Below are positions 3,163 to 8,625 of a DNA stretch of 47,741 nt, in pieces; the stretch's first letter is position 1; each line of letters opens with the position of its first letter. Below the pieces are notes generated by a model. That model saw nothing but the letters and a program-made list of their open reading frames with translations, searched no databases and had not been told where the DNA came from. Source of the DNA: Gammaproteobacteria bacterium (GTDB lineage: Bacteria > Pseudomonadota > Gammaproteobacteria > Methylococcales > DRLZ01). Position numbers and translations under genes: made by a program. Location: positions 1 through 47,741 of the forward strand of contig JAHZJL010000277.1 in assembly GCA_022600935.1 (NCBI GenBank), in the 5' to 3' direction.

Positions 3163-5175
3163 TTATTCGTTAAACAATGCATCAACAAATCGTTCAGCAT
3201 CGAAGTCTTGCAAATCATCAATTGCTTCGCCAACTCCGATAAAACGTACCGGTTTGCCAAGTGTCTTGGCCAGTGCAAAAATCATCCCGCCTTTTGCAGT
3301 ACCATCCAGCTTGGTTAATACAATTCCGGTCACGCCTGTGGCCTGGTCAAACTGTTTGGCCTGTTCCAGCGCATTTTGCCCGGTGCCTGCATCAAGAACC
3401 AGTAATACTTCATGCGGTGCATCTTCATCCAGTCTGCTCAGGATGCGTCTGATTTTGCTTAACTCATCCATCAGGTTATGTTTGGTGTGCAGGCGCCCGG
3501 CTGTATCTGCAATCAAGACATCAATTTTTTTGGCCTTTGCAGATTCGCAGGCATCAAACACCACTGATGCCGAGTCGGCGCCAGTATGTTGCGCAACTAC
3601 CGCAATCTCATTGCGCCGACCCCATTCCTGGAGTTGTTCAACTGCTGCAGCCCTGAAGGTATCACCGGCAGCCAGCATCACGGACAAGCCTTGTTGCTGA
3701 AATCGTCTGGCCAGTTTGCCAATTGTGGTGGTTTTACCGACGCCGTTGACGCCGACAACGAGAATTATATAGGGTCTGATATCAGTATCGACAATAGACA
3801 ATGGTTCACTCACAGGTTTCAGCATTTGATGCATTGTCGATTTCAATGTGTTGGACAAGGCGTCCGGGTTATTCTTGTTGTCTGCACTGCCTTGTTTGAC
3901 AGCGTCGAGGATTTCATTTGTGGCATCGACGCCAACATCGGCCATTAGCAAGCAGGTCTCGGCATCTTCAAGCCATTCTGCATCGATTTGGCTGCGACTC
4001 AGTAATTCAGACATTACACCTGAAAAACCGCCTCTGGTTTTACCTAACTGATTTTTCAGGCGCTGATAAAGAGACTCCGGAGTAGGAGGGATATACTGCT
4101 CAGGAACTGCAGCGGCTTGAATTGCACTGGTTGGTTGTTGTAAAACATCCTGACCAGTTTGCACATCAGTTGCCTGGTCAGCGTCTGTCTGACGTGTATC
4201 AATAAATCGCAGCCAGAACCAGATAGACAGCAGGCAGAATAACAGTAACGCTGTGATAGTGCTGTGAGCGACGCCAAGTTCTACCATATAATCACGGTAC
4301 ATACTGACAGCAATTCCTGATCCGATTTGTAATAGCAAAAACAGGCTCAGGAAATTACCGGCGATACGGACTTTGCGGGGTTTGTTTCTTGACGTCGAAC
4401 TTAATGCGACGAATGCCAGCCATAAAAATACGACCAGGCCCGACACTCGATGGGTCCACAAAATTGCGGTTCTGGCTTCCTTGGATAATGCGTTGACCCG
4501 ATCGATACCGAACACAAACGCATCGTGAAATCCTTGCAGATAGTCAGCCTTTGGCCACCATTGGCCGTAGCAGGTTGGAAAATCGGGGCATGCGGAATAC
4601 GCAAAATTAGCGCTGACCCAACCGCCCAGGGCAATCTGGATAAACAATAAAAAAATCCCCAGCCAGACAGCTTGAATACCGCGCAGTGCGACCTCACGTT
4701 TTTTTACAAACAGGCTGGAACGCATGGATAGCCAGTACAGACACCCAAGCAGAGCCATTCCGGTCATCAGGTGGAGCGTAACAAACACCGGTGACAACAT
4801 GCGGGTGATAATTGAGATGCCCAAGCCGACTTGTGTGCAATAGAGCAGCAGGGTAATAATCGAAAGTGATAGCAGTGCCAGTCGTGATTGTTTTCTGAAC
4901 AAAGCGATACTGGACAGAATAATCAGCAAAAAACCCAGACCAAAAGCAATCAATCGATGTGACATATGTTTCCAGGCACGAGTCTCACTGAATCTGAAGC
5001 CGGGAAATTTCTGTAAATCGCTTTGCTGGACTGCGTTTTGGTCAGGTAACATCATTTCACCAATGCAGCCTGGCCAGTCCGGACATGCCAGCCCGGCTCT
5101 TGATAATCGCATATAGCTCCCCGATACAATGACTATCAGGCAGATTAACAAACAAAACAGTGTCAGTTTTCTCAT
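3163..5175 (-). CDS. ctaA-ftsY: heme A synthase (CtaA/COX15) fused in frame to signal recognition particle receptor FtsY
   Basis: One uninterrupted 670-codon frame carries two complete proteins. Residues 1 to about 327 are a heme A synthase: eight predicted TM helices in two four-helix halves, histidines H73, H135, H242 and H304 at the heme-ligand positions, and cysteine pairs C31/C37 and C196/C202 in C-P-D-W-P-G-C and C-P-D-F-P-T-C. Residues 328-360 are a polar Gln/Thr/Asp-rich linker. Residues 360-670 are an FtsY NG domain: G1 G-V-N-G-V-G-K-T-T at 475-483, D-T-F-R-A-A-A at 505-511, D-T-A-G-R at 557-561, T-K-L-D-G at 621-625, and a closing G-V-G-E loop. The membrane enzyme stands where the acidic A domain of FtsY normally lies. 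There is no ATG between the modules, but a GTG at residue 338 has a weak AGG 8 nt upstream and could give a separate 333-residue FtsY. The gene sits between SURF1/SCO-like genes and ftsEX, matching both halves. Confidence 0.93.
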   Translation of the reverse strand: MRKLTLFCLLICLIVIVSGSYMRLSRAGLACPDWPGCIGEMMLPDQNAVQQSDLQKFPGFRFSETRAWKHMSHRLIAFGLGFLLIILSSIALFRKQSRLALLSLSIITLLLYCTQVGLGISIITRMLSPVFVTLHLMTGMALLGCLYWLSMRSSLFVKKREVALRGIQAVWLGIFLLFIQIALGGWVSANFAYSACPDFPTCYGQWWPKADYLQGFHDAFVFGIDRVNALSKEARTAILWTHRVSGLVVFLWLAFVALSSTSRNKPRKVRIAGNFLSLFLLLQIGSGIAVSMYRDYMVELGVAHSTITALLLFCLLSIWFWLRFIDTRQTDADQATDVQTGQDVLQQPTSAIQAAAVPEQYIPPTPESLYQRLKNQLGKTRGGFSGVMSELLSRSQIDAEWLEDAETCLLMADVGVDATNEILDAVKQGSADNKNNPDALSNTLKSTMHQMLKPVSEPLSIVDTDIRPYIILVVGVNGVGKTTTIGKLARRFQQQGLSVMLAAGDTFRAAAVEQLQEWGRRNEIAVVAQHTGADSASVVFDACESAKAKKIDVLIADTAGRLHTKHNLMDELSKIRRILSRLDEDAPHEVLLVLDAGTGQNALEQAKQFDQATGVTGIVLTKLDGTAKGGMIFALAKTLGKPVRFIGVGEAIDDLQDFDAERFVDALFNE

Positions 5176-6523: not shown

Positions 6524-6860
6524 ATGTGGTATTCATGGATTAATCAACTAATGGCGATTTGTCAGTTTAATATTGATTCAGGCAATAGATCAGCTGAATG
6601 ATTGATAATGTGTTGGCTTTCAATGCAGTTATTACTAGGGACAATTCTTTACTTAGTGAATGGGTGATTGCTGACGTATGCCGCAACAGCTTGTTTGCAA
6701 ATTTAATCTGCATGTCACGTCGTTATTTGGTTTGCTGATTTTATGCTCAGCTTATTTTCAGGCGAAACATATTATACTTGTGTCTCACCAATCTCACTAT
6801 GTCTATCATGCAGTTGACATGAACAGAACGGTAAAAATTTTCAATATGAGGCATTTGTCT
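6524..6860 (+). other. divergent intergenic region between SURF1 and the lipoprotein gene
   Basis: These 337 bp separate two divergently transcribed units and must hold both promoters. A TTGACA hexamer lies at 6814-6819 in the rightward direction, but no good -10 box follows at 16-18 bp. A TATACT at 6773-6778 lacks a convincing -35. An in-frame upstream extension of the lipoprotein frame (back to 6678) runs through this region but has no Shine-Dalgarno and would bury the signal peptide, so I treat it as non-coding. Confidence 0.4.
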
Positions 6861-7529
6861 ATGCTTGACACATATAAAATACTCCTGGTCATTTTGTCGA
6901 TTGGATTGATCACCGGGTGTCAACAAAAATCCTTGATGCCTGGCGAAGTTGCGCAGGAATACTGGAATGCTGTGAAATCAGGTAATACCGAACAGCTCCG
7001 AAATCTGTCCATCGATGCAGCGAATGCTGCCACAGATCCAGAAATCAGTGAATTAAAACTGAAGGATTTCAAGATCAAGAGGATTATCATCGAGGACAAG
7101 GATGCTGTCGTTGAAGTCGATTTGCAACTGGCTGAAGCCGATTCAATTCCGGTTCCGGTCAATACAATTCTGGTAAAGCAGAATCAAACATGGCTGGTTG
7201 ATCATGCGACGACTTTTGCGTCACTCAAAACAAAAAGTGATCTGGGTAATGCCATAGCTGCATTGCATCAGTTCAGTCGCATACTATCGCGGGATCTTGA
7301 TCAGTCACTGACCGAACTGGAGAAAAAAGCTCCGGTTATTCGTAAAGATATCAACAATCTTATCGATAAAATGTCAACTCGATTACCAACACTGAAAAGA
7401 GAATTTCAACAATTGCTTGAAGACATTGATCAATCCGTCAAATCATTCGCCGAGAAATCGCAAAGTCAAGACATTAAGCCAAAGATGAAACGCAAACAGT
7501 CGCCGCAATTAAATCCCGAAGTACTTTAG
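6861..7529 (+). CDS. predicted lipoprotein with NTF2/DUF4878-like domain
   Basis: The 222-residue product has a lipoprotein signal peptide: a hydrophobic stretch I-L-L-V-I-L-S-I-G-L then the lipobox L-I-T-G-C, making Cys20 the lipidated residue. I chose the ATG at 6861 because GAGG (6848-6851) lies 9 nt upstream and the signal peptide then begins correctly. After the anchor, P-G-E-V-A-Q-E-Y-W-N-A-V-K-S-G-N resembles the start of DUF4878/NTF2-like lipoproteins, with an alpha+beta domain to about residue 120. The rest is helical and rich in Lys, Leu and Asp, possibly coiled coil. Function unknown. It lies between the divergent SURF1 operon and rpoH, in the same direction as rpoH. Confidence 0.75.
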   Translation: MLDTYKILLVILSIGLITGCQQKSLMPGEVAQEYWNAVKSGNTEQLRNLSIDAANAATDPEISELKLKDFKIKRIIIEDKDAVVEVDLQLAEADSIPVPVNTILVKQNQTWLVDHATTFASLKTKSDLGNAIAALHQFSRILSRDLDQSLTELEKKAPVIRKDINNLIDKMSTRLPTLKREFQQLLEDIDQSVKSFAEKSQSQDIKPKMKRKQSPQLNPEVL

Positions 7530-7673
7530 CACAGCAACAATTTTTGACATGCCTGGGTAACTTCAATAGGAGCAGGCTATCAAATAATTACTATCTTGTA
7601 GATTTATGGGGTGAAAATTGTTTCTGGCAAAGATTACGGTGTGATTGTCAACGAAATCAAGTCTGAGAACTTT

Positions 7674-7679
7674 TATAAT
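7674..7679 (+). promoter_or_regulatory. -10 box of the rpoH promoter
   Basis: A consensus TATAAT lies 3 bp before the CIRCE element. A transcript starting about 7 bp downstream would begin inside the left arm of the operator, the usual arrangement for HrcA repression. No good -35 is seen at 17 bp spacing (ACGAAA); a TTGTCA at 7645-7650 is too far away. Confidence 0.5.
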
Positions 7680-7681
7680 TA

Positions 7682-7708
7682 TTAGCACTCTAATCAGAAG
7701 AGTGCTAA
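7682..7708 (+). promoter_or_regulatory. CIRCE operator (HrcA binding site) upstream of rpoH
   Basis: TTAGCACTC at 7682-7690, a 9-bp spacer, and GAGTGCTAA at 7700-7708 form a perfect 9-9-9 match to the CIRCE consensus. HrcA binds this inverted repeat and represses chaperone operons such as groESL and dnaK in many bacteria. Here it lies 41 bp before the rpoH start codon and directly after a TATAAT -10 box, so the inference is that HrcA represses rpoH. No hrcA, dnaK or groE gene is in the window. Confidence 0.92.
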
Positions 7709-7749
7709 AATTAGCAATAATGGTTTTATTTAGCGGAGTATCGCACACT

Positions 7750-8625
7750 ATGGGACAATTAATGACAGCTACTAATCATTTACCGTCACCGATCGGTTCA
7801 TTTGACGCTTATCTGGCAATCGTCAATGGTTTTACCAGGCTTGATGCTGAACAGGAATATGCGTTGGCTTGCCGGTTTCGTGATCAAAATGATCTGGATG
7901 CAGCGCAACAATTGATTCTGGCTAACTTGCGGCATGTTCCTTATATTGCCAAAAGTTATTCTGGTTACGGATTGCCACAACCAGATCTGGTTCAGGAGGG
8001 CAACGTGGGCTTGATGAAAGCGTTGAAGCGTTTCGATCCTGAACAAGGTGTTCGACTGATTTCGTTTGCTGTTCACTGGATACGTGCTGAAATGCACGAG
8101 TTCATTATCAAGAATTGGCGAATCGTAAAAATCGCCACAACCAAAGCCCAACGTAAGGTATTTTTTAATCTTCGCAAATCCAAAAAGCAATTGGGCTGGA
8201 TGACTGAATCTGAAGCCCGGAAAATCGCTGCTGATCTGGATATTGATGTCGATACTCTGCGCCAGATGGAAGGGCGTATGGAACGCTCTGACATGGCGTT
8301 TGACAGCTCACCGGATGATTCTGATCAAACGCATCAATTTTCTCCATCCACTTATCTGCAGGACACAAACCTGGAGCCTTCTGCCCAGGTAGAAGCCTTG
8401 GAGCAGGAAAAAATGCAACTATCCGGTTTGTCCAATGCCTTGCAACAACTGGATGAAAGAAGTCGTGATATTATCAAACAGCGTTGGCTGTCAGAATCAA
8501 AGTCAACCCTGCATGAACTGGCTGATCAATATCAGGTTTCTGCAGAGCGTATTCGACAGCTGGAAAATAACGCAATCAAAAAATTAAAAAATGGTTTGTC
8601 TAACGTGTATTCTGTTGAGTTATAA
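7750..8625 (+). CDS. rpoH: RNA polymerase sigma-32 (heat-shock) factor RpoH
   Basis: RpoH directs RNA polymerase to heat-shock promoters. The 291-residue protein has region 2 (N-L-R-H-V-P-Y-I-A near 59-67, D-L-V-Q-E-G-N-V-G-L-M-K near 79-90, F-A-V-H-W-I-R-A-E-M), the RpoH box A-Q-R-K-V-F-F-N-L-R-K at about 133-143, and region 4 with an HTH (L-H-E-L-A-D-Q-Y then S-A-E-R-I-R-Q-L-E). The start at 7750 has GGAG 11 nt upstream; the ATG at 7762 is an alternative. Longer in-frame extensions would cross the operator and are rejected. A perfect CIRCE and a TATAAT box precede it. Unlike the usual arrangement it is not directly behind ftsX; it lies over 4 kb away on the opposite strand. Confidence 0.97.
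   Translation: MGQLMTATNHLPSPIGSFDAYLAIVNGFTRLDAEQEYALACRFRDQNDLDAAQQLILANLRHVPYIAKSYSGYGLPQPDLVQEGNVGLMKALKRFDPEQGVRLISFAVHWIRAEMHEFIIKNWRIVKIATTKAQRKVFFNLRKSKKQLGWMTESEARKIAADLDIDVDTLRQMEGRMERSDMAFDSSPDDSDQTHQFSPSTYLQDTNLEPSAQVEALEQEKMQLSGLSNALQQLDERSRDIIKQRWLSESKSTLHELADQYQVSAERIRQLENNAIKKLKNGLSNVYSVEL

Follow-up and report, generated by a model that had tools for sequence, protein, structure and literature searches.

A perfect CIRCE element upstream of rpoH overlaps putative sigma-E and sigma-70 promoter elements

The rpoH locus and its CIRCE element

The stretch of DNA analysed here (47,741 nucleotides, called the window) contains rpoH, the gene for the heat shock sigma factor sigma-32. 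The following features were found in and directly upstream of this gene.

7666 to 7672, forward strand: sigma-E (RpoE) -35 element AGAACTT, 16 bp before TCTAA
7674 to 7679, forward strand: TATAAT, pointed out in an earlier note and not favoured as the main promoter
7682 to 7708, no strand assigned: CIRCE, the HrcA operator, perfect consensus with arms at 7682-7690 and 7700-7708 and a 9 bp spacer at 7691-7699
7689 to 7693, forward strand: sigma-E -10 element TCTAA, composed of 2 bases at the end of the left CIRCE arm and 3 spacer bases
7703 to 7711, forward strand: sigma-70-type extended -10 TGCTAAAAT (hexamer 7706-7711), made of the right CIRCE arm plus AAT
7735 to 7738, forward strand: GGAG, likely the ribosome-binding site as read from the sequence, with the ATG 11 nt further
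7750 to 8625, forward strand: rpoH, sigma-32, 291 amino acids (TIGR02392, 372.6 bits, cut-off 323.1)

The equivalent ATG is used as start codon in the closest relative, a congeneric Crenotrichaceae metagenome-assembled genome (locus L004), whose RpoH is 78% identical. The host protein has 147 residues identical to E. coli RpoH and keeps L47, A50, I54 and the QRK-FFNLRK stretch with one L to V change, which we take to be residues used in the stability control of E. coli sigma-32. Since these residues are kept, it is likely that control of RpoH at the protein level is still present. Just 5' of rpoH lies a small lipoprotein-like gene (6678-7529, forward strand), which is conserved in L004 and gave no confident family match. 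Further upstream, on the reverse strand (3163-5175), one frame of 670 amino acids combines a COX15/CtaA heme A synthase (amino acids 3-315, PF02628) with FtsY (amino acids 397-668, TIGR00064) and adjoins ftsE, ftsX and a SURF1 gene; this is either a real fusion or an assembly effect, the locus of the relative (L004) ending before the junction.

The earlier note had described a perfect CIRCE directly 5' of rpoH, and this was borne out: TTAGCACTC-N9-GAGTGCTAA at 7682-7708 shows 0 mismatches to the consensus and, as noted, is separated from the rpoH ATG at 7750 by 41 bp. No other CIRCE with 3 or fewer mismatches occurs in the whole window, and the expectation from shuffled sequence is 0. From the base composition of the 3.89 Mb genome about 6e-5 perfect sites are expected, and two were observed, one upstream of rpoH and the other upstream of groES-groEL. 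A pattern search of this genome, which is 85% complete, returned exactly these two at up to 3 mismatches as well, so that the search for further CIRCEs, proposed in the same note, yielded one, in front of groESL.

Distribution of the site in Gammaproteobacteria

Conservation was assessed in a class sample of 140 GTDB Gammaproteobacteria genomes, nearly all from different families, 130 of which had a readable rpoH upstream region; in GTDB, this class includes the former Betaproteobacteria. With about one genome per family, the statistics of this sample ignore phylogeny. A CIRCE with up to 3 mismatches precedes rpoH in 90 of the 99 genomes that encode hrcA and in 4 of the 31 that do not (Fisher P=3e-16), leaving nine hrcA-containing genomes without such a site and four genomes that carry a CIRCE-like site but no hrcA. 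In shuffled sequence, the best CIRCE match usually has 7-8 mismatches and never fewer than 4. Nearly all relatives from the same order have a CIRCE before rpoH, and in most of 39 named loci from GTDB species, such as Lysobacter and Thermomonas, a CIRCE with 0-2 mismatches is located closely upstream of the gene. Thus the site is kept in relatives, where the earlier note had suggested looking for it, and throughout the class. A CIRCE before rpoH is the usual state in gammaproteobacteria with hrcA and is not peculiar to the host, and control of rpoH by HrcA is well supported by conservation.

The strict combination of an exact GAACTT with a near-perfect CIRCE was found in 56 of 369 class genomes, with 0 matches in the reversed control. 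In a phylum-wide sample, rich in groups expected to lack HrcA, 9 of 398 genomes matched the strict pattern, all of them within the class. A chance or one-off site was therefore dismissed: none is expected in shuffled sequence, and the strict pattern recurs across the class and tracks hrcA.

It might also be argued that the rpoH CIRCE is an ancestral relic, retained since it provides the -10 elements of both promoters, and that HrcA matters little there. The CIRCE letters do serve also as sigma-E -10 and extended -10, some genomes without hrcA retain CIRCE-like sites, and text resembling TGCTAAAAT persists in two genomes in which no CIRCE is recognisable. However, those arm positions that belong to neither -10 element hardly vary across the 94 rpoH sites of the class sample, and the difference between genomes with and without hrcA implies that the rpoH CIRCE decays once HrcA is lost. 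We therefore regard a mere relic as quite improbable.

Two genomes carry doubled sites. In a single-cell genome (L033:2892-2947), two back-to-back CIRCE-like sites before rpoH together form a larger palindrome, and in genome G070 (L274) a second, degenerate CIRCE adjoins the first one.

Promoter elements overlapping the CIRCE

When the rpoH CIRCEs were aligned, (G)GAACTT emerged as a further conserved block, located at constant spacing upstream of the CIRCE. Together with the TC of the left arm and the three following spacer bases it yields GGAACTT-N16-TCNNA, the form of a sigma-E promoter, for which the published RpoE consensus is GGAACTT / TCAAA (PMC4890791). The host sequence AGAACTT-N16-TCTAA fits GGAACTT and TCNNA at a spacing of 15-17 bp; it is unique in the 47.7 kb, and the chance of such a match in 450 bp is about 0.007. 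Of the 94 rpoH CIRCEs in the class sample, 63 have GAAC at positions -14 to -16, as against 0 of 40 CIRCEs of groESL and hrcA (P=6e-15). The 40 controls all come from one order and the rpoH test set is class-wide; equal enrichment is seen at the rpoH sites from the controls' own order and from the named loci, with GAAC followed by T or C 16-17 bp from the TC of the CIRCE in 61 of 79 regions. Because GAACTT is absent at that offset from all 40 groESL/hrcA CIRCEs, we dismissed it as a general component of the CIRCE. An A occupies the third spacer position in 58 of the 63 rpoH CIRCEs with the -35 element as compared to 11 of the 40 control CIRCEs (P=9e-12), and it is at this position that sigma-E requires an A.

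The overlapping layout is also linked to the sigma factor itself: among the CIRCE-bearing genomes it was found in 63 of 84 with rpoE and in 0 of 10 without (P=5e-6), so that in the class sample a sigma-E -10 inside the CIRCE occurs only where rpoE is present. The host encodes RpoE (309.7 bits) and, adjacent on the same contig, an RseA-type anti-sigma gene (RseA_N, 42.6 bits). The other 31 of the 94 rpoH CIRCEs have no GAAC at -14 to -16. In about ten of these genomes a sigma-E motif is displaced, mostly to 29-42 bp upstream, the CIRCE then being located downstream of the -10; the remaining ones may use sigma-70 only.

The right arm of the CIRCE contributes to a second element. The last position of the hexamer, three bases past the CIRCE, is T in 83 of 94 rpoH CIRCEs and in 6 of 40 controls (P=2.7e-16), and this T results in TGCTAAAAT or close variants at the rpoH sites. 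The pattern TGnTAnnnT is conserved to a greater degree than the CIRCE accounts for, TGCTANNNT being found in 81 of 94 rpoH CIRCEs compared with 4 of 40 control CIRCEs, and the extended -10 is retained in 27 of the 31 rpoH sites without sigma-E elements. This sigma-70 element consists of a -10 only, and most of its letters come from the CIRCE itself.

The earlier note had pointed to the TATAAT at 7674-7679, given there as 3 bp before the CIRCE; the spacing is really 2 bp. HrcA would then repress rpoH through an ordinary sigma-70 promoter, as at groESL, with the sigma-E match being incidental. The closeness of TATAAT to the CIRCE fits such an arrangement, as do the control CIRCEs, which mostly follow TTGACA-type promoters (TTGACA-N17-TATTA(T) for groESL in the relatives), and one family of the order has TGCTATAAT immediately 5' of its rpoH CIRCE. 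However, the consensus scan found no -35 at 16-18 bp from the host TATAAT, which is missing in the congeneric L004 although GAACTT is kept there, and its columns (-6 to -1 relative to the CIRCE) show no conservation in the class sample, whereas the sigma-E elements have a fixed spacing and are linked to rpoE. We thus rejected TATAAT as the main -10, lacking as it does both a -35 and conservation, and consider this reading unlikely; TATAAT is a weak candidate, and what is conserved is the sigma-E type promoter and the sigma-70 extended -10 inside the CIRCE.

Could the repeat act in the RNA instead? RNA structure governs rpoH in E. coli, and an inverted repeat close to the rpoH start codon might form a hairpin in the 5' leader that serves stability or temperature sensing rather than being a DNA operator. 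The sigma-E start is, however, predicted to lie within the repeat, so that the left arm would be untranscribed, and the exact CIRCE letters are conserved beyond mere pairing and track hrcA. Since the predicted starts fall inside or just past the repeat, a hairpin as the main role of these letters seems very improbable to us.

We therefore favour, with good confidence, the interpretation that 7682-7708 is an HrcA operator embedded in a pair of rpoH promoters, one of sigma-E and one of sigma-70 type. Similar pairs are known from P. aeruginosa and E. coli. In P. aeruginosa, AlgU (sigma-E) transcribes rpoH from P3, and RpoD does so from P1 and P4 (PMC13104619). E. coli K-12 has TGAACTT-N16-TCTGA at the equivalent place before rpoH, without a CIRCE. 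The host and E. coli both have, shortly before rpoH, a sigma-E promoter whose spacing is 16 bp, and in view of P3 and P4 of P. aeruginosa the two elements of the host are probably a P3/P4 pair. Unlike the host, in which the CIRCE extends across both, E. coli has no repressor operator over its rpoH promoters, and a control profile search gave no match for hrcA there. After TGAACTT-N16-TCTGA in E. coli K-12 (L309), CAGTG stands near the place where the right arm of a CIRCE would be expected to start, possibly a trace of a lost CIRCE and too weak for a claim.

HrcA, RpoH targets and the proposed circuit

The earlier note had made its proposal depend on hrcA, and the gene is present (TIGR00331, 302.4 bits, cut-off 197.2), located before grpE and dnaK. 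The operator in front of it is damaged, reading TTAGCAGCACTCAATTAACAGTGCTAA with 4 mismatches (L003:1418-1444), and for this reason HrcA may have lost control of its own gene in the host, unlike in the congener. A repeated GCA converts TTAGCACT-N8-AGTGCTAA into TTAGCAGCACTCAATTAACAGTGCTAA; the congener site is perfect (L149).

A scan of the host genome for sigma-32-type promoters gave 8 matches, versus 0 in the reversed control, of which only those before htpG and grpE-dnaK were convincing:

L310:1501-1525, at the end of hrcA and 242 bp before grpE: sigma-32-type promoter TTGAA-N14/15-CCCCAT, candidate RpoH target
L315:1501-1526, 46 bp before htpG: sigma-32-type promoter TTGAA-N14/15-CCCCAT, candidate RpoH target

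These promoters suggest that RpoH has targets of its own beyond the HrcA sites and reaches genes that are not bound by HrcA directly. Given the damage to the hrcA operator, dnaK may come under HrcA mainly through RpoH. The two-layer circuit that the earlier note had put forward, with HrcA above the sigma factor, is thus likely, since RpoH probably has its own targets.

Release of HrcA would depend on the occupancy of GroEL, as established in other bacteria. A circuit drawn from the sequence features could then operate as follows. Without stress, HrcA bound to the CIRCE would, on the simplest view, sterically exclude RNA polymerase from both promoters, that is, from the P3-like promoter AGAACTT-N16-TCTAA, whose -10 and predicted start lie inside the CIRCE, and from the P4-like extended -10 TGCTAAAAT formed by the right arm. 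Once GroEL is occupied by unfolded protein, HrcA would become inactive and leave the CIRCE, allowing basal transcription of rpoH by sigma-70, and strong transcription if envelope stress also frees sigma-E. The rpoH promoter would thereby resemble an AND gate, its output requiring release of HrcA and, for P3, envelope stress. RpoH would direct transcription of its own targets (htpG and grpE-dnaK in the host), with groESL repressed directly by HrcA, and restored GroEL would re-arm the repressor. The departure from the E. coli scheme claimed in the earlier note thus holds in part: a layer of HrcA control has probably been added to the E. coli scheme rather than put in its place, as the P3-like promoter and the stability residues are kept.

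We lean slightly towards a broader reading, in which in most hrcA-containing gammaproteobacteria the CIRCE provides the -10 elements of a sigma-E and a sigma-70 promoter of rpoH, inputs from protein folding (HrcA) and the envelope (sigma-E) merge at a 45-bp site, and the P3/P4 pair of E. coli is a remnant left after loss of HrcA and the CIRCE. Textbook accounts of sigma-32 control draw on E. coli, a bacterium without HrcA, and those of HrcA on Gram-positive bacteria, which to our knowledge have no sigma-32. If the broader reading is true, the two systems, usually described separately, are wired in series in most hrcA-containing gammaproteobacteria, HrcA gates the master heat shock factor itself at a promoter shared with sigma-E, and E. 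coli is a derived case. The rpoH site would then offer a small, testable case of how stress signals from the cytoplasm and the envelope come together.

The host rpoH site resembles the classical HrcA/CIRCE systems of groESL and hrcA-grpE-dnaK in operator consensus, repressor family and heat shock target. It differs in that the target is the heat shock sigma factor and that the CIRCE overlaps a sigma-E -10 and an extended -10, whereas in the relatives the groESL CIRCEs and most hrcA CIRCEs follow TTGACA-type promoters. For Geobacter sulfurreducens, HrcA control of rpoH has been predicted from a perfect CIRCE 51 bp upstream (Rodionov et al. 2004, PMC545781, Table 8). That prediction concerns a single delta-proteobacterium and, in the part of the paper that bears on it, names neither a promoter class nor a dual-promoter geometry, whereas the arrangement described here is class-wide in Gammaproteobacteria. 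The two-layer idea is therefore not new in principle, as HrcA/CIRCE on rpoH was already known from this prediction, but the twin-promoter geometry, the link to rpoE and the class-wide spread appear to be unreported. Term searches across 5.39 million openly available papers found neither HrcA control of rpoH beyond the Geobacter prediction nor the sigma-E overlap; Permina and Gelfand 2003, reportedly on gamma-proteobacterial HrcA regulons, may list some of the sites. RpoH and HrcA also meet in one cell in Agrobacterium tumefaciens, where both are used by groE (PMC11764788). Their roles in that bacterium have been called differential and independent, whereas in the host HrcA would sit above RpoH.
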